Part shown: positions 24,260 through 57,955 of the stretch, piece after piece
How the letters are laid out: every line of letters starts with the position of its first letter
Position numbering within the stretch: the first letter of the stretch is position 1
Source of the DNA: Paratractidigestivibacter faecalis
GTDB taxonomy: Bacteria > Actinomycetota > Coriobacteriia > Coriobacteriales > Atopobiaceae
Direction: 5' to 3'
DNA length: 64,000 nucleotides
Assembly: GCF_003416765.1 (NCBI RefSeq)
Contig: NZ_QSNG01000001.1
Coordinates: forward strand, 1,018,742-1,082,741
Notes under the pieces: generated by a model
Seen by the model: only the letters and a program-made list of their open reading frames with translations
The model's database searches: none
Told to the model about the DNA's origin: nothing
Position numbers and translations under genes: made by a program

Positions 24260-24290
24260 AGGCTTCAGGCATCAGGCAGACCGAGACGCA

Positions 24291-24372
24291 GCGGCCCCGC
24301 GCCCTTCTCCCCAAAAGCTTTTGAGCGCGCTCTCTGCGCGAGGTGCTTTTGGGGAGAAGGGCGCGGGGCCGC
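24291..24372. repeat. 28-bp perfect inverted repeat between convergent genes
   Basis: Arms of 28 nt at 24291-24318 and 24345-24372 are exact complements, beginning GCGGCCCCGCGCCC. They enclose 26 nt that itself contains a GCGCGC/GCGCG pairing. It sits between the stops of the coiled-coil gene and queA and could act as a bidirectional terminator, although no T-run follows. Its sequence differs from the other palindromes in the window. Confidence 0.75.
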
Positions 24373-24387
24373 TGGCTGGCGCGAGGC

Positions 24388-48529: not shown

Positions 48530-48581
48530 CCAAAGTGAACGGGGGTGAGTGGCACGTGCCACTCACCCCCGTTCACTTTGG
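48530..48581. repeat. 52-bp perfect palindrome after serC
   Basis: Twenty-six bases on each side of the centre (CACGTG, between 48555 and 48556) are exact complements with no loop. The arm starts CCAAAGTGAACGGGGG. It begins 17 nt after the serC stop. No T-run follows, so it is not a classical terminator. The sequence is not repeated elsewhere in the window. Confidence 0.85.
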
Positions 48582-50627: not shown

Positions 50628-51130
50628 GTGAGGGACCTCCTAGCCTCTCCGAGAGACACTGTCCTTGCGAGGTTGGCGTGGCACACCGCGGCGGCAAGGG
50701 CGTCCGCGGCATGGTCAGGGTGCGGCTCGTGGTCGAGCGCCAGGACGTTCTTTACCATGTACATGACCTGGCGCTTGTCGGCGGCGCCCGTACCCACCAC
50801 GGCCTGCTTGATCTGCATGGGGGTGTACTCCCCCACCTCCAGGCCGGCGTTGGCGCAGGCCACGATGGCCACGCCGCGCGCCTGCGCCGTGGCTATGGCG
50901 CTCTTGGTGTTCTCGCCAAAGTAGACGTTCTCTATGGAGAGCGCCGTGGGGCCAAACTTGGAGATGACGCGCGTGAGCTCGTCGTATATCTTGCCCAGGC
51001 GGCGGGCGATGGGCTCGTCGGCCTTGGTGGCCACGCAGCCGTACGCGCGGGCGCGGCACATGGCGCCCCTGGTCTCTATGACGCCCCAGCCCGTGTGGGC
51101 CAGGCCGGGGTCAACCCCAAGGACTATCAC
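50624..51130 (-). CDS. ruvC: Holliday junction resolvase RuvC
   Basis: The 168-residue resolvase has catalytic acids in LGVDPGLAHTGWG (Asp 7), LSIENVYFGEN (Glu near 68) and HPDHAADALAAA near the C-terminus. It cuts Holliday junctions symmetrically. GTG at 51130 is chosen as start, with GGGAGG 7 nt before it and the first catalytic Asp at the usual position 7; an upstream ATG at 51178 would add 16 unusual residues. Confidence 0.95.
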   Translation of the reverse strand: MIVLGVDPGLAHTGWGVIETRGAMCRARAYGCVATKADEPIARRLGKIYDELTRVISKFGPTALSIENVYFGENTKSAIATAQARGVAIVACANAGLEVGEYTPMQIKQAVVGTGAADKRQVMYMVKNVLALDHEPHPDHAADALAAAVCHANLARTVSLGEARRSLT

Positions 51131-51228
51131 CGACGCGCCTCCCTCCTGCCATCTAGAACGTTCGTTCCATACTAGCACGTTGGGAGAGGGTCGGGCCCGC
51201 CAAGAGGCACGAATCTTTGGGCAATGCC

Positions 51229-51369
51229 GAGCCGAGAAACGCGGCCGATGGCACGCCCGCGCCCCGTACGAGCCTCGGAATGCGGCCGATGGCAGCCAAA
51301 CCCTGCCATCGGCCGCAATTCTCGGCTCATGGGGCGTCGCCGCGTGCCAACCGCCGCACTTCTCGGCCC
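51229..51369. repeat. Composite palindromic element, full 141-bp copy
   Basis: Words fitting GAGCC-N7-GCGGC-N-G-N-TGGCA begin at 51229 and 51270 (direct) and at 51304 and 51345 (inverted), with the same 41/34/41 spacing and 9-nt centre as at 41442. The last word directly abuts the stop codon of the NAD-synthetase-like gene. Confidence 0.9.
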
Positions 51370-53232
51370 CTAGTTCTCGGAGAAGGGGCCGTTCCAGAGG
51401 CCGCCGCCGGGGCGCGAGGGACCGGAGCCGTGCCTGTCAGAGGCGTCCTGCCCGGAGGCGCCCGCCTGCGGGCCAGGCTCCCCTCCGCCCAGGCTGAGCC
51501 CGCCGCCCAGGGACACGTCGCGGAGAAGCCCCAGGAGCTCGTGGGCGTCCTGGGGAAGCCCTCCCTGCCCCGCGGGGGCAGCCTGCGCGGCCGGGGCCTG
51601 GCGCTTCTCGTCGCTGCCCTCGCGGTCGAAGGCGGCAAGCGTGGCTTCCAGGCGCTCCTCGTGCGGACGCACCCGGTCGGACCAGGCCAGGCCCAGCGGG
51701 CTCCTCACCTCATCCAGGAGCTTGGAGGACATCATGAGCACGGGCGGGGCGGCGCGCCTTGCCCAGGAGAGCGCCCTCACGCGCGCGAGGATGGCGCAGA
51801 CGGCCTCCTCGTGGCCGCGGGCCTCCACGATGTCGCTCACGGGCAGCTCCCACTCAACGTAGCTGGCAAGCACGTAGTCCGCAAACTCCAGGCGCGTCTC
51901 GGAGGAGTGCCCGCACGCGGCAAGGCCGGGCAGGTCGGGCAGGTCGTAGGCCATGCGTGCCGCGGCCGGGATGACGGGAGAGACCGTGTTTCTCATGTGC
52001 GCGAAGGCGAGCACGTCGGAGCGGTAGACGTCGCCCAGCGGGGCCAGGGCTCCGGCGTCAAGCCCACGCGGCCCCTCCAGCGCGAGGCCGGTCTTGTCGC
52101 GGGACGAGAGCGCGACGCCGCCCACCTCGCGTGCCAGGGCCGCAAGGTGGGCCTGCGCCACGTCCGCGCGCAGGAGCGGGTCCCCCTCGCTGGGCGCAGA
52201 AGGGCACTCGCGGGTGTCCACGCGCAGGTTCCGGCAGAGGTCGCGGGCAGCGGACAGAGCAACGGGGCCCAGGTCGGGGGCTATAAGCGCGTGCACGTGC
52301 GTGGGACCGAGGGCATCGGTGGCAAGGGCCGCCAGGACGCTCGAGCCCAGGCGTCCGTCGGCGAGAAGCGCCACGTCGGAGGCCCCCAGCTGCGAGCAGG
52401 TCTGCCCGAGGCCCAGCGTGAGCGCGCCCCAGGAAGCGGCGCCGCGGTCGAAGACCTCGGGCGTGAGCGCGTGCGGCAGCGGCCCCTCGGAGGCGGGGTC
52501 CACGTCGCAGACGAGCAGGGCCTCCTCCAGGGCCTGCGCCTGCGCGGCCACCTCTCCCCAGGGGGCCAGCACGAAGCTCGAGCCCGTGAACGTCTCTGCG
52601 TCGTAGCAGCCGAGCGAGCCCACGCCGCAGATCCAGGCGCCGGTGGCGCGCGCGTCCGCCAGGAAGCGGGAGTCCGCCAGGGCCGGGCCCAGCGCGGAGG
52701 AGGCGTCGTCCATGGAGAAGCCATAGGTGGAGAGGTAGAGGATGACGTTGACGTCGTAGTCGCACTCGTCGTAGTCATCGAGGTCGTCGTAGCTGCAGGC
52801 AATGCCCAGACGGGCACCCGCGAGCTCCACCTCGGGCAGCGCGCGCGACGAGGCCGCGCGACGACGGGCGGGCACGGGAGAGTCGGCCGCCACGGCGTCC
52901 TCTAGGAAGGCGGAGAGGCGCAGGGGCCTCACGTCGCCGTCGACGACGAGCATGGCCTCGGGCGTGGGCGTGCCGTCCACGTCGGCCGTGGCGGGGACCA
53001 GGCAGGGGCAGGCGAGCCGCTCGGTCAGGCCCGAGAGCGTCTCGGCCAGGTCGAGGAGGAACCCCTCGCGGTCCACGTAGGGCACCCCCGCCGCGCCGGA
53101 GAGCACGTTCATGGGAAAGACCAGCAGGTCGACGCCCTGGTCGGCGGCACGGCGGGAGTAGGCCGCCATGCGGTCCGCGGTAGTGGCAAAGTCCCCCGCG
53201 AGGCTCCCCAGTTGCGCGATGCCCAGTCTCAT
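51370..53232 (-). CDS. Degenerate glutamine-dependent NAD(+) synthetase homologue
   Basis: This 620-residue protein follows the NadE layout: a nitrilase-like glutaminase domain (MRLGIAQLGSLAGDF... to about 270), then an adenine-nucleotide alpha-hydrolase-like synthetase domain. Key residues are missing. The nitrilase Glu position reads VFPMNVLSG instead of FPE, the Lys region reads RPLRLSAFLED, and only a Cys remains in GIACSYDDLDD. The synthetase P-loop SGGxDSS is replaced by ALLADGRLGSSVLAALATDALG. The final 60 residues are Gly/Gln/Pro-rich. It is probably not a working NAD synthetase; a regulatory or new role is possible. The ATG at 53232 has AAGGAG within a 29-bp inverted repeat. Confidence 0.8.
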   Translation of the reverse strand: MRLGIAQLGSLAGDFATTADRMAAYSRRAADQGVDLLVFPMNVLSGAAGVPYVDREGFLLDLAETLSGLTERLACPCLVPATADVDGTPTPEAMLVVDGDVRPLRLSAFLEDAVAADSPVPARRRAASSRALPEVELAGARLGIACSYDDLDDYDECDYDVNVILYLSTYGFSMDDASSALGPALADSRFLADARATGAWICGVGSLGCYDAETFTGSSFVLAPWGEVAAQAQALEEALLVCDVDPASEGPLPHALTPEVFDRGAASWGALTLGLGQTCSQLGASDVALLADGRLGSSVLAALATDALGPTHVHALIAPDLGPVALSAARDLCRNLRVDTRECPSAPSEGDPLLRADVAQAHLAALAREVGGVALSSRDKTGLALEGPRGLDAGALAPLGDVYRSDVLAFAHMRNTVSPVIPAAARMAYDLPDLPGLAACGHSSETRLEFADYVLASYVEWELPVSDIVEARGHEEAVCAILARVRALSWARRAAPPVLMMSSKLLDEVRSPLGLAWSDRVRPHEERLEATLAAFDREGSDEKRQAPAAQAAPAGQGGLPQDAHELLGLLRDVSLGGGLSLGGGEPGPQAGASGQDASDRHGSGPSRPGGGLWNGPFSEN

Positions 53233-53426
53233 GTGACGCTCCTTGTCCGTGGTCGGTCGTTTGAGTATACGGCGAGAAGTGCGCTCATGCCCGACCCGGG
53301 GCAGCCCGACACATCCCCTATGGCGCAAAGCTACGCTGCGCAAAGAGCTTTGCCGCCATAGGGGATGTGTCGGGCACGCTGCGGCGGCGTCATCCCAGAC
53401 CACGGACAAGGAGCGTCACATGAGAC
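53226..53426. repeat. 29-bp perfect inverted repeats carrying a start region
   Basis: 53226-53254 and 53398-53426 are exact complements and contain the ribosome-binding site and ATG of the NAD-synthetase-like gene (minus). The plus-strand copy holds the same AAGGAG and ATG but leads into unrelated sequence. The 143-nt middle contains a further palindrome and no gene. It may be an invertible segment or the scar of an inverted duplication. Confidence 0.8.
53304..53375. repeat. 29/30-bp inverted repeat within the larger repeat
   Basis: The arm at 53304-53332 (starting GCCCGACACATCCCC) pairs with 53346-53375 with one bulged base and a 13-nt loop. It has the same style as the other intergenic hairpins but its own sequence. 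Confidence 0.75.
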
Positions 53427-53477
53427 CGGGACAGGGGTCGCTTCCGCCCTTATGCCGCTGTGGGGGTGGCGTGGTTG

Positions 53478-53858
53478 CTAGGCTTCGGCCTTCCAGAGGC
53501 CGTGGAGGTTGCAGTACTCGTAGACGGTGACGGGCACGCCCTCAGGCACCCAGAAGCCGGCATAGGGCCTCTCGCCGGGCTCGAGGTGGGCCAGCTGCAG
53601 GCGCCTCTCGCAGGCCACAGCAATCCACTGGATGTGGTGCTCGGGCAGCATGGGGTGCTCGACTGAGCCCACGGTAACGCGAAGCACGTTTCCCTCGCGC
53701 GTGACCTCAGGCACGTGCTTCTCGACGGCCGCGTCCACAGAGCCCGCAACCAGGAGCTCCATGGGCTCGCCGCAGCAGATGGGAACGGGGCCTCCGTCCT
53801 CCACAACGGCGACGAGGTTACCGCAGTGCCTGCAACGATAGAACTTGACCTCGGACAT
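53478..53858 (-). CDS. Desulfoferrodoxin (superoxide reductase)
   Basis: The 126-residue two-centre protein has an N-terminal desulforedoxin site with Cys 9, 12, 28 and 29 (YRCRHCG; PICCGEPM). The C-terminal neelaredoxin site has His ligands in EKHVPEV and EHPMLPEHHIQWI and Cys/His in YEYCNLHGLW. It reduces superoxide to peroxide without making oxygen, typical of anaerobes. The Glu of EKHVP is retained. Start ATG with AGGGGAG. Monocistronic. Confidence 0.95.
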   Translation of the reverse strand: MSEVKFYRCRHCGNLVAVVEDGGPVPICCGEPMELLVAGSVDAAVEKHVPEVTREGNVLRVTVGSVEHPMLPEHHIQWIAVACERRLQLAHLEPGERPYAGFWVPEGVPVTVYEYCNLHGLWKAEA

Positions 53859-53946
53859 GATGACTCCCCTCCGTGCGTGCGGGCCGCCCCTTGCGGCCCC
53901 TCACCGGGGTTCTACCCATCATGCCCGAGGCGCTGGCAGACGTCCG

Positions 53947-53998
53947 TCCGGCAACGTGTCCCATATTTGCGAAAAAACGAACACGTCCCCAATTTGCG
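53947..53998. repeat. Related copy of the palindrome word at 25.67 kb
   Basis: 53974-53998 carries AACGAACACGTCCCC followed by AATTTGCG, the complement of the 25671-25695 word, with the same A-run beside it. A diverged direct copy (GTGTCCCATATTTGCG) precedes it at 53947-53971. It lies between the desulfoferrodoxin start and the dnaE stop. Confidence 0.65.
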
Positions 53999-54005
53999 GG
54001 GAGGG

Positions 54006-57000
54006 CTAGGCCACGCAGATGTGGCCGGCCAGGCCCACGATGTCGGTCACCTCGGCGAGAAGCACCATGTTGCGGGCGTCCACGCGGCAGGGAAGCTCCA
54101 TGCGCATGGTGTCTCCGCTCTCGGCCTCCACGCGCAGCTCCACGTGGTCCAGGCCCGGGTAGCGCGCCAGCACGCTTCCCAGCTCGTCCATGCGGCCGCG
54201 CGTGAGCATGCTGGCGGGCATCATGACCTCGACGACCTTGGGACGGTTGGTCTTCTCGTTGAGGACGAGGGGCTCCACCTCCATGCAGATGATCTGGTTG
54301 CCGCGGTCGCTTCTCTCCAGCTTGCCGGAGACCTTGACGAAGACGTCTCCCTCGGCCTCGCCGGTCTCCTCGTCCACGTGGGGCGTCAGGGCCTCGGCGC
54401 ACTTCTTGTACAGCTTGGGGAAGATGACCAGCGTGGTCTCTCCCTCCATGTCCTCAAGTGTGACGACGGCCATGGGGTCGCCGTTCTTGGTGGTCTTCTT
54501 CTGCACGGACGAGACCATGCCCGCAAAGCGCAGGACCTTGCCCTCGGGCACCTTGAAGCGCTCGTGGACGCCGCCGGCGGAGTCCGTGAACTCCTCGGAG
54601 ACCTCGATGTCGGAGAGCGAGTAGTCGCGCGCCTTGTTGAGGGCGTACTCGTACGGGCGCAGCGGGTGGTCAGAGACGTAGAGGCCCAGCACCTCGTGCT
54701 CGCGCTTGAGCTTCATGGAGCGGTCCCACTCCACGCCGTCGGGAGGCGGCACCTCCTCCTTGAAGCCGGAGCCCTCCACGTCGCCGAACATGTCGAACAT
54801 GGAGAACTGCCCGCTCGCGCGCTCCTTCTGGCGCTTGGCCGCCGCGTCGATGATGTTGGCGGGGTTGGTCTTGTCGACGAAGCCCATGAGCTGCATGCGG
54901 GTGTAGCCGGTGGAGTCGAAGGCGCCCGACATGATGAGGGCCTCCACCACGCGGCGGTTGGCCTGCGAGGAGTCCACGCGGTCCACGAAGTCGTGCAGGC
55001 TCTTGAAGGGGCCGCCGGCCTCGCGCTCGGCCATGATGGCGTCGCCCACGCCGTCGCCCACGCCGCGGATGCCGGCAAAGCCAAAGCGCACGCCGTCGGC
55101 GCTGGCCGTGAAGTCGCGGCCGCTCTCGTTGATGTCGGGCGGCAGGATGTCCACGCCCTCGCGGCGGAAGGCCGTGACGTAGTGGACGATCTTCTCGGTC
55201 TTGCCCATGTAGGAGGTAAGTACCGAGGCCATGTACTCCTTGGGGAAGTAGGCCTTGAGCCAGGCCGTCTGCATGACCAGGATGGCGTAGCCGGCCGAGT
55301 GCGACTTGTTGAAGGCGTAGGACGCAAACTCCAGGACGTCGTCCCAGATGCGCTGGGCGACCTCGCGCTTGTAGCCGTTCTCCACCGCGCCGTTGATCCA
55401 GTGGTCGTAGATGGTCTCATCGGCGCCGTTGGCCTCCCAGTGGAAGACCTGGTCGGTCAGCATCTTGATCTTCTTCTTGGCCACCGGCTTGCGGATGCGC
55501 GAGTCGGACTCGCCCGGCGAGAAGTTCGACATCTTCATGGAGATCTGCATGACCTGCTCCTGGTAGACCATGGTGCCGTAGGTCTCGTCCAGGATGTCGG
55601 AGAGGCGGTCGTCGTAGAAGGCGACGGGCTCCTTGCCGTTCATGCGGTTGATGTAGCTCGTGACCATGCCGGCGCCCAGGGGACCCGGGCGGTACAGGGC
55701 GATGAGAGCGACCACCTGGCGGTACTCCTTGGGCTGCATGCCCTTGATGGTGGCCGTCATGCCCGCGGACTCGATCTGGAAGACGCCCGCGGTGTGGCCG
55801 CGGCCCATGAGCTCGAAGATCTTGGGGTCGTCGAAGGGAATCTTGTCGACGTTGATGTCCACGCAGGTGGCGCCCGGCTTGATGGTCTGGCGCACGACCT
55901 CGGGCATCTGCTCGATGTCGGCCACGCCGGGGTAGCTCTTGCGGATGTTGGCCAGGGCCTTGGAGATGACGGTCAGGGTGCGCAGGCCAAGGAAGTCCAT
56001 CTTGAGCAGGCCCATGTCCGCCACCGAGTGGCCCTCGTACTGGGTGATCTCGACGCCGCCCTTGGTGTCCACCTTGGTGGGCACGTGGTCGTTGACGGGC
56101 GTGGGAGCGATGAGGACGGCGCAGGCGTGCACGCCCTCGCCACGGTGCAGGCCCTCGATGGAGAGGGCCGCGTCGATGATGCGACGGGAGTCGGCGTCCT
56201 TCTGGTAGGCCTCGGCGAAGTCGGGCGAGAACATGTCCTCCTTGCCGTCGCACTTCTCGAGGACGAACTTCAGCTTTGCCTTGGGGTCGTTGGTGATCAT
56301 CTTGGAGAGCTTCTGGCCCTGCCAGACAGGGAAGCCCAGGACGCGGCAGGCGTCGTTGATGGCCTGCTTGGCCTTGATCGTGGAGTAGGTGATGACGTGG
56401 CAGACGCGCTCGGGGCCGTAGAGCTCGCGCACGTGCTGCACGACCTCCAGGCGCCGCTCGTCGTCGAAGTCCATATCGATATCGGGCATCTCGGAGCGCT
56501 GCGGCGAGAGGAACCTCTCGAACATCAGGCCGTTGGAGAGCGGGTCGAAGGTGGTGATGTCCATGGCGTAGGCGACGAGGGCTCCGGCGGCCGAGCCGCG
56601 TCCCGGGCCCACGCCGATGCCGTTGTGCTTTGCCCACTGCACGTACTCCTGCACGATGAGGAAGTAGTCGGCGAAGCCCTTGGTACAGATGATGTCGTAC
56701 TCGTGGTTCAGGCGGTCCAGGACGTTCCAGCCGCCGATCTCCACGTTCTTCCAGTCCTCGCCGTAGCGGATGGCCAGGCCCTTCTCGCACTCCTCGCGGA
56801 AGCGCTGCTCGGAGGTCTCCCCCTCGCGCAGGCCAGGGAACTTGGGCAGGTACATGTGCGTCCAGTCCAGCTCGTAGTCGCACTTGGCCGCCACCTCGAG
56901 GGTGTTGTCGATGACCTCGGGGCACCAGGAGAAGAGCTTGCGCATCTCCTCCTCGCTCTTGATGTAGAACTCCGTGCCCGTCATGCGCTTGCGGTTGACG

Positions 57001-57908
57001 TCGTCCACCTTGGACGCCGTGCCGATGCACGAGAGGATGTCCTGGGTGGGGGCGTCCTCGCGGGTGAGGTAGTGGTTGTCGTTGGTGGCGATGACCTTGA
57101 TGCCGAGCTCGCGGCCCAGGCGAACGATCTGCTCGGAGAGGGAGCGGTCGTCAAAGCCGCCCCAGGCCGGGTCGGACAGGCCGTGGTCCTGGACCTCGAG
57201 GTAGAAGTCCTCGCCGAAGATATCTCGGAAGGTGAGGGCCCACTGCTTGGCCTCGTCGGGCCTGCCCTGAAAGTACATGCGCGGGATGATGCCCGACACG
57301 CACGCCGAGCTGCAGATGATGCCCTCGTGGTAGCGACGCAGCATGTCGAGCGTGGTGCGCGGGTAGTAGTAGAACATCTCGCCGGAGGCAGCCTCGCTCA
57401 TCATCTTCATGAGGTTGACGTAGCCGGTCTCGTTCTTGGCAAGGAGCAGCAGGTGGTAGCGGTGCTGCTTGGTGCCCTTCTGGATGCAGTCGTCGGTGAT
57501 GAAGTAGGCCTCGCAGCCAAAGATGGGCTTGATGAGGAGCTCGGGCCGGTTGGCCTCGACGGCGGCCAGGTCATGGCCGGACTCCTCCCAGACGGCCACG
57601 TCGGAGGCCCACTGGGCGTGGACGCGGTCGTGCGGGCCGGCGTCGGCGGCGTCCGGCTCGGGCTCCTCGAGCTCCCAGCCCTTCCTGAAGCACTCGACGT
57701 CGTGCTTCCACTGCTTCATGTCCTTCTGGGCGTCGTTGTACTTGCGGCACTCCAGGTCAAAGTCGGGGACGCCGAACATGTAGCCGTGGTCCGTGAGGGC
57801 CAGGGCCGGCATGTTGAGGTCGACGGCGCGCTTGACCATGTCGGGGATCTTGGTCGCGGCGTCGAGCATGGAGTAGTCGGAGTGGTTGTGCAGGTGGACG
57901 AAGGCCAT
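54006..57908 (-). CDS. dnaE: DNA polymerase III alpha subunit
   Basis: The 1300-residue replicative polymerase begins with the PHP domain (FVHLHNHSDYSMLDA). The polymerase core has the catalytic Asp pair in MPDIDMDFDDERR near residue 476, GVGPGRGSAAGALVAY, and the later YRPGPLGAGM and FNKSHSAGYA motifs. A helix-hairpin-helix region and a C-terminal OB fold (LRFAGMVSSVQKKTTKNGDPM) follow. Residues 60-105 hold an insertion in the PHP domain (FRKGWELEEPEPDAADAGPH). The ATG at 57908 has GGAAGG; GTG at 57914 is the alternative. Confidence 0.97.
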   Translation of the reverse strand: MAFVHLHNHSDYSMLDAATKIPDMVKRAVDLNMPALALTDHGYMFGVPDFDLECRKYNDAQKDMKQWKHDVECFRKGWELEEPEPDAADAGPHDRVHAQWASDVAVWEESGHDLAAVEANRPELLIKPIFGCEAYFITDDCIQKGTKQHRYHLLLLAKNETGYVNLMKMMSEAASGEMFYYYPRTTLDMLRRYHEGIICSSACVSGIIPRMYFQGRPDEAKQWALTFRDIFGEDFYLEVQDHGLSDPAWGGFDDRSLSEQIVRLGRELGIKVIATNDNHYLTREDAPTQDILSCIGTASKVDDVNRKRMTGTEFYIKSEEEMRKLFSWCPEVIDNTLEVAAKCDYELDWTHMYLPKFPGLREGETSEQRFREECEKGLAIRYGEDWKNVEIGGWNVLDRLNHEYDIICTKGFADYFLIVQEYVQWAKHNGIGVGPGRGSAAGALVAYAMDITTFDPLSNGLMFERFLSPQRSEMPDIDMDFDDERRLEVVQHVRELYGPERVCHVITYSTIKAKQAINDACRVLGFPVWQGQKLSKMITNDPKAKLKFVLEKCDGKEDMFSPDFAEAYQKDADSRRIIDAALSIEGLHRGEGVHACAVLIAPTPVNDHVPTKVDTKGGVEITQYEGHSVADMGLLKMDFLGLRTLTVISKALANIRKSYPGVADIEQMPEVVRQTIKPGATCVDINVDKIPFDDPKIFELMGRGHTAGVFQIESAGMTATIKGMQPKEYRQVVALIALYRPGPLGAGMVTSYINRMNGKEPVAFYDDRLSDILDETYGTMVYQEQVMQISMKMSNFSPGESDSRIRKPVAKKKIKMLTDQVFHWEANGADETIYDHWINGAVENGYKREVAQRIWDDVLEFASYAFNKSHSAGYAILVMQTAWLKAYFPKEYMASVLTSYMGKTEKIVHYVTAFRREGVDILPPDINESGRDFTASADGVRFGFAGIRGVGDGVGDAIMAEREAGGPFKSLHDFVDRVDSSQANRRVVEALIMSGAFDSTGYTRMQLMGFVDKTNPANIIDAAAKRQKERASGQFSMFDMFGDVEGSGFKEEVPPPDGVEWDRSMKLKREHEVLGLYVSDHPLRPYEYALNKARDYSLSDIEVSEEFTDSAGGVHERFKVPEGKVLRFAGMVSSVQKKTTKNGDPMAVVTLEDMEGETTLVIFPKLYKKCAEALTPHVDEETGEAEGDVFVKVSGKLERSDRGNQIICMEVEPLVLNEKTNRPKVVEVMMPASMLTRGRMDELGSVLARYPGLDHVELRVEAESGDTMRMELPCRVDARNMVLLAEVTDIVGLAGHICVA

Positions 57909-57955
57909 GGGCACCTTCCGTTTTGGTCGTGATCTTCTCAGCCTCTGAGCATAGC

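Follow-up and report, generated by a model that had tools for sequence, protein, structure and literature searches.

The stretch between a desulfoferrodoxin gene and an NAD-synthetase-like gene carries two 29-bp sequences that are identical in inverse orientation (53226-53254 and 53398-53426) and are separated by a 143-bp spacer; positions here and below are those of the window, the whole 64-kb stretch of DNA analyzed. We hold, with moderate confidence, that this repeat is an inverted duplication that arose by template switching and that would mask a ribosome-binding site on read-through RNA, rather than a switch driven by a recombinase. An earlier note on this DNA had described exact 29-bp arms that include the Shine-Dalgarno sequence and ATG of the NAD-synthetase-like gene, together with an interior that contains a promoter-like sequence, TTGAGTATAC, and a second hairpin. 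The arms were confirmed at the positions given above. The promoter-like sequence likewise proved real, and reads TATACT (53269-53264) on the minus strand, as did the inner hairpin (53304-53375), which has perfect 22-bp arms at 53304-53325 and 53354-53375 and lacks a T-run. With one mismatch allowed, the outer arms grow to 33 nt (53222-53254 and 53398-53430), again with a spacer of 143 nt.

On the minus strand, a DNA polymerase III alpha subunit-like gene with a PHP domain at its N-terminus (54006-57914), which we take to be dnaE, is followed by the desulfoferrodoxin gene (53478-53858; 126 aa) and then by the NAD-synthetase-like gene (51370-53232; 620 aa). Past the desulfoferrodoxin stop codon lie, in order, the right arm, the inner hairpin, the TATACT hexamer and the left arm. 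The left arm, read on the minus strand, comprises the leader of the NAD-synthetase-like gene together with its start, from position -22 to position +11 (counted from the A of the ATG), with AAGGAG at 53244-53239 and the ATG at 53232-53230. The right arm is an inverted copy of this leader on the plus strand, situated in the desulfoferrodoxin 3' UTR and starting 47 nt beyond the stop codon of that gene. Comparison with orthologues identifies the left arm as native, since it sits at the position of their promoter and leader (28/32), and since the ATG of the right arm, read on the plus strand, opens a frame of just 36 aa. A search of positions 51000-56000 against Rfam at the gathering threshold returned 0 matches, ruling out a known RNA family at the locus.

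Arms of this length go well beyond what chance would produce. The longest exact arm found within 600 nt in 20 first-order Markov sequences modeled on the 64-kb window was 16 bp, and because this control never exceeded 16 bp, a chance origin of the 29-bp arms is excluded. Within a 464-kb sample, consisting of the window and 20 sampled stretches of the 2.1-Mb genome, the 29-bp repeat exceeded in length every other exact inverted repeat whose spacer was longer than 60 nt. Inverted repeats are abundant in this genome overall: those with arms of at least 18 bp numbered 24 in these 464 kb, many of them members of repeat families or short-spaced hairpins, compared to 1 in 200 kb of genome G024 and 8 in 200 kb of genome G118. 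Two further long perfect palindromes are present in the window, at 24289-24374 (30-bp arms) and 48530-48581 (26-bp arms, no spacer), each between apparently convergent genes.

Transcription of the NAD-synthetase-like gene most likely starts from a promoter of its own that lies between the arms and is directed at the gene. A -10-like hexamer was present 24-46 nt before the start in 28 of 32 orthologues including the window (27/31 relatives), compared to just 3 of 128 control windows taken from farther upstream, and this contrast is the basis for placing the promoter within the repeat. In the window, the likely -10 element is the minus-strand TATACT at 53264-53269, 31 nt from the ATG. A scan for consensus two-hexamer promoters found none, and no good -35 was located; the position of the promoter was therefore taken from the orthologues. 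The 32 starts were those of 29 of the 30 best-match loci, the window (L022) included, plus L020, G024 and G001. L050 was omitted because its locus is truncated and its gene start could not be placed, and L020 was the only one added from the named loci since some of the others seem to repeat the sequences of unnamed loci (L018/L031, L019/L029 and L021/L028).

With arms that hold the gene start at one end and a promoter between them, the earlier note had proposed a possible invertible switch, in which inversion would flip any promoter inside and could switch the gene. On this reading, a site-specific recombinase would act on the 29-bp arms and turn the gene on or off. The structural part of this proposal stood: the arms are exact, the gene start is in one of them, and the 143-bp interior contains a putative promoter, as judged from the -10 element and its position, that inversion would remove from the NAD-synthetase-like gene. 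Moreover, invertible promoters located between inverted repeats occur in gut bacteria, as described in two reports (PMC8748976, PMC11892184), and resemble the present locus in having a promoter upstream of a gene with inverted repeats around it. Here, however, the repeats hold a Shine-Dalgarno sequence, an ATG and codons, placing the arms within the leader and first codons of the gene, and there is neither a nearby recombinase nor a second site. The note had suggested looking for a recombinase elsewhere in the genome. Serine recombinases (PF00239) gave 0 matches there, whereas one was present in 10 of 14 control genomes. Tyrosine recombinases (PF00589) had seven matches, none inside the window, and a distant one of these might act in trans. 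The nearest, at C1:940025, is ~78 kb from the left end of the window (1018742) and ~130 kb from the repeat, leaving the repeat with no recombinase of either family within ~130 kb.

Across the ~3.5-kb surroundings of all seven PF00589 matches, the longest exact stretch shared with the arm was 9 nt, and no arm-like sites were found beside these loci. Likewise, a genome-wide search with an 18-nt arm core, allowing 3 mismatches, recovered both arms and only two other sites, each with 3 mismatches and at a level equaled by a reversed-pattern control. The arm sequence is thus unique to the locus, which rules out its being a genome-wide operator or repeat. In addition, none of the 31 relatives examined carries the arms. 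Since nothing points to inversion, the invertible-switch reading is unsupported, and we consider it improbable. The simple inverted duplication that the note had named as its alternative fits better, given the lack of a nearby recombinase, the uniqueness of the arm and the absence of the arrangement from all 31 relatives. Our literature search turned up nothing relevant on invertons in Actinobacteria that include start codons, or on Olsenella with inverted repeats.

Most likely, then, the repeat is a species-specific inverted duplication produced by replication template switching. The growing strand would have swapped template near an existing palindrome, copying ~33 nt of the gene leader in reverse complement ~143 nt upstream, and the copy would have landed in the desulfoferrodoxin 3' UTR. 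The repeat is an exact reverse-complement copy at close range, as expected of template switching, and a palindrome, the inner hairpin, is present between the arms. Monttinen and Loytynoja (2022; PMC8794818) report that template switching makes perfect reverse-complement repeats in one event, the hairpins concerned resembling the present case in that a perfect stem results from copying neighboring sequence in reverse complement. Their work used ancestral reconstruction, whereas we infer the mechanism without a pre-duplication ancestor. We rejected the idea that the inner hairpin had simply grown outward to give the repeat, because gaps of 49 and 22 nt separate the arms from its stem and the two are therefore not contiguous.

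The longest upstream antisense match to the start region was 29 nt in the window and 5-9 nt in 31 of 31 relatives. These 31 relatives are without the copy, and their intergenic sequences have diverged too far for an exact pre-duplication site to be recognized. A genome of the same genus (G001) displayed 43% identity at the NAD-synthetase-like gene, and there the end of the dnaE-like gene is directly upstream. Because the feature is not conserved, selection on the inverted copy cannot be argued. We also considered the arm as a family-conserved regulatory leader. An arm 19-mer matched with up to 2 mismatches in 26 of 140 genomes, its own included, mostly ahead of unrelated genes or within coding-like contexts; we read these matches as common ribosome-binding-site context and rejected this candidate. 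One match exceeds such context in length: in G024 (L061/L008), which belongs to another genus, the leader of an unrelated 281-aa gene, presumably DegV-like, agrees with the arm at 24 of the 25 nt of shared leader.

Since the arm spans -22 to +11, any RNA containing the leader together with its inverted copy would have its ribosome-binding site hidden. Initiation at the promoter between the arms would yield transcripts that start downstream of the copy and leave the site open, while RNA reading through from desulfoferrodoxin would contain the two arms, form a fold-back structure and conceal the site. Folding predicted mean unpaired probabilities for the Shine-Dalgarno sequence of 0.60 and 0.69 on own-promoter transcripts of two lengths, each folded from an assumed 5' end at 53262, and of 0.00 on read-through transcripts at both lengths. 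When the right arm was shuffled 100 times, the median unpaired probability was 0.48 (range, 0.02-0.70). As a duplex, the two arm RNAs were predicted to have an energy of -71.2 kcal/mol. We propose that essentially all translation of the gene would come from own-promoter transcripts, because read-through RNA would hide the site; read-through itself and any effect on expression are inferred. The inner hairpin, which is terminator-like by its position downstream of the desulfoferrodoxin stop codon, may end most transcripts ahead of read-through, even without a T-run; a terminator consensus scan did not list it.

A Shine-Dalgarno sequence with an unpaired probability below 0.05, when 250 nt upstream were included, was found at 3 of the 32 loci: the window, L033 and L047. 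In the latter two the low accessibility stems from unrelated local structure, and a conserved ribosome-site hairpin at the NAD-synthetase-like gene was rejected based on this count. Two other loci are likewise too few to argue for low accessibility as a recurrent theme. In the G032 orthologue (L047), the 60 bases ahead of the gene start, on the reverse strand, form a strong hairpin (-41.4 kcal/mol) that contains the Shine-Dalgarno sequence and lies right before the ATG.

The closest tested parallel to the proposed masking is icaR of Staphylococcus aureus (PMC3868564), whose 3' UTR contains a motif described as pairing with a Shine-Dalgarno site either in cis or in trans. Both cases involve a 3'-UTR complement of a Shine-Dalgarno region that is predicted to block the ribosome. 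The icaR motif is 7 nt long, acts within one mRNA and was tested experimentally, whereas the complement described here is 33 nt long, lies between two neighboring genes, occurs in one species and is a prediction only. Our literature search gave nothing on point for the combined theme of read-through, hairpin and ribosome site. If masking works, the locus would be a clean natural case in which a single mutation could give one gene a 3' UTR that regulates its neighbor by antisense pairing, and the origin of such pairings would become testable.

The icaR precedent extends to pairing in trans, and a purely trans-acting antisense RNA is a further explanation to be weighed. The 3' untranslated RNA of desulfoferrodoxin, ending at the inner hairpin, would pair with the leader of its neighbor and repress it. 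The near-perfect complementarity over 33 nt and the duplex energy cited above favor such pairing. Folding nevertheless predicts that the right-arm RNA is partly structured within its own 3' UTR, and the complementarity is not conserved among relatives. We regard this explanation as highly improbable.

The SGG[IL]DS motif and the Glu of the nitrilase domain are absent from the NAD-synthetase-like protein encoded downstream, in 29 of 29 orthologues aligned, and against the NAD+ synthase model the protein scored 96.9 bits, compared to a cut-off of 479. It is a probable pseudoenzyme. A protein bearing SGGLDS is encoded elsewhere in the genome, at C1:1565708. The NAD-synthetase-like protein is conserved, with matches in 108 of 121 family genomes. 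Its closest named matches are from Olsenella and Thermophilibacter (51-54% identity), which places the genome probably in the Atopobiaceae.

These features bear on the possibility that the inverted duplication, although of the same origin, is neutral: the desulfoferrodoxin terminator would stop nearly all transcripts, those from the gene's own promoter would dominate, and the copy would have no effect. Its restriction to one species (0/31 relatives examined) and the terminator-like hairpin between the arms are consistent with neutrality, and selection on dosage may be weak because the downstream protein looks catalytically dead. A ribosome covers about the span from -22 to +11. That the copy corresponds to this very span argues against neutrality, although, with so little intergenic sequence, a copy placed at random could match it as well. 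We view a neutral duplication as possible, if somewhat unlikely, and continue to favor template switching with masking on read-through RNA.

A more elaborate form of the favored reading would make the inverted copy both a translational insulator and an antisense device between neighbors: with a full complement of the next ribosome-binding site in its 3' UTR, desulfoferrodoxin would silence the following gene in cis on read-through RNA and possibly in trans upon its own induction. The copy would have originated in one template-switch step at a palindrome, in a genome with recurrent hairpins that share an apex but have exact arms specific to each locus. We offer this combination tentatively and think it rather unlikely to hold as a whole.

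The recurrence of hairpin apexes is apparent from the inner hairpin itself. Its 29-nt apex (53325-53353, plus strand) has four copies within 3 mismatches genome-wide and a fifth with a longer middle, the five sites being 53325-53353 in the window, L092 7859-7887, L104 8368-8396, L098 7945-7973 and L101 1514-1548. Among 139 other family genomes searched, none contained the 29-nt apex with up to 3 mismatches. Every copy is inside a hairpin, and the four outside the window are located 12 to ~70 nt past a stop codon. The hairpin arms at L092 and L104 are alike (0/500 shuffles) and those at L098 and L101 are somewhat so (3/500), while the arms of the window hairpin are unlike those at the other four sites. 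We also noted a second family of hairpins at gene ends, with the common apex GGCGACTTCCGCAG ... GAGGACTGAG on either strand. This family was grouped by eye from five places in the 464 kb (L089 7472-7553; L093 974-1061, 1321-1400 and 13661-13753; L099 12283-12380). One copy is more diverged, and no pair of arms is clearly alike.
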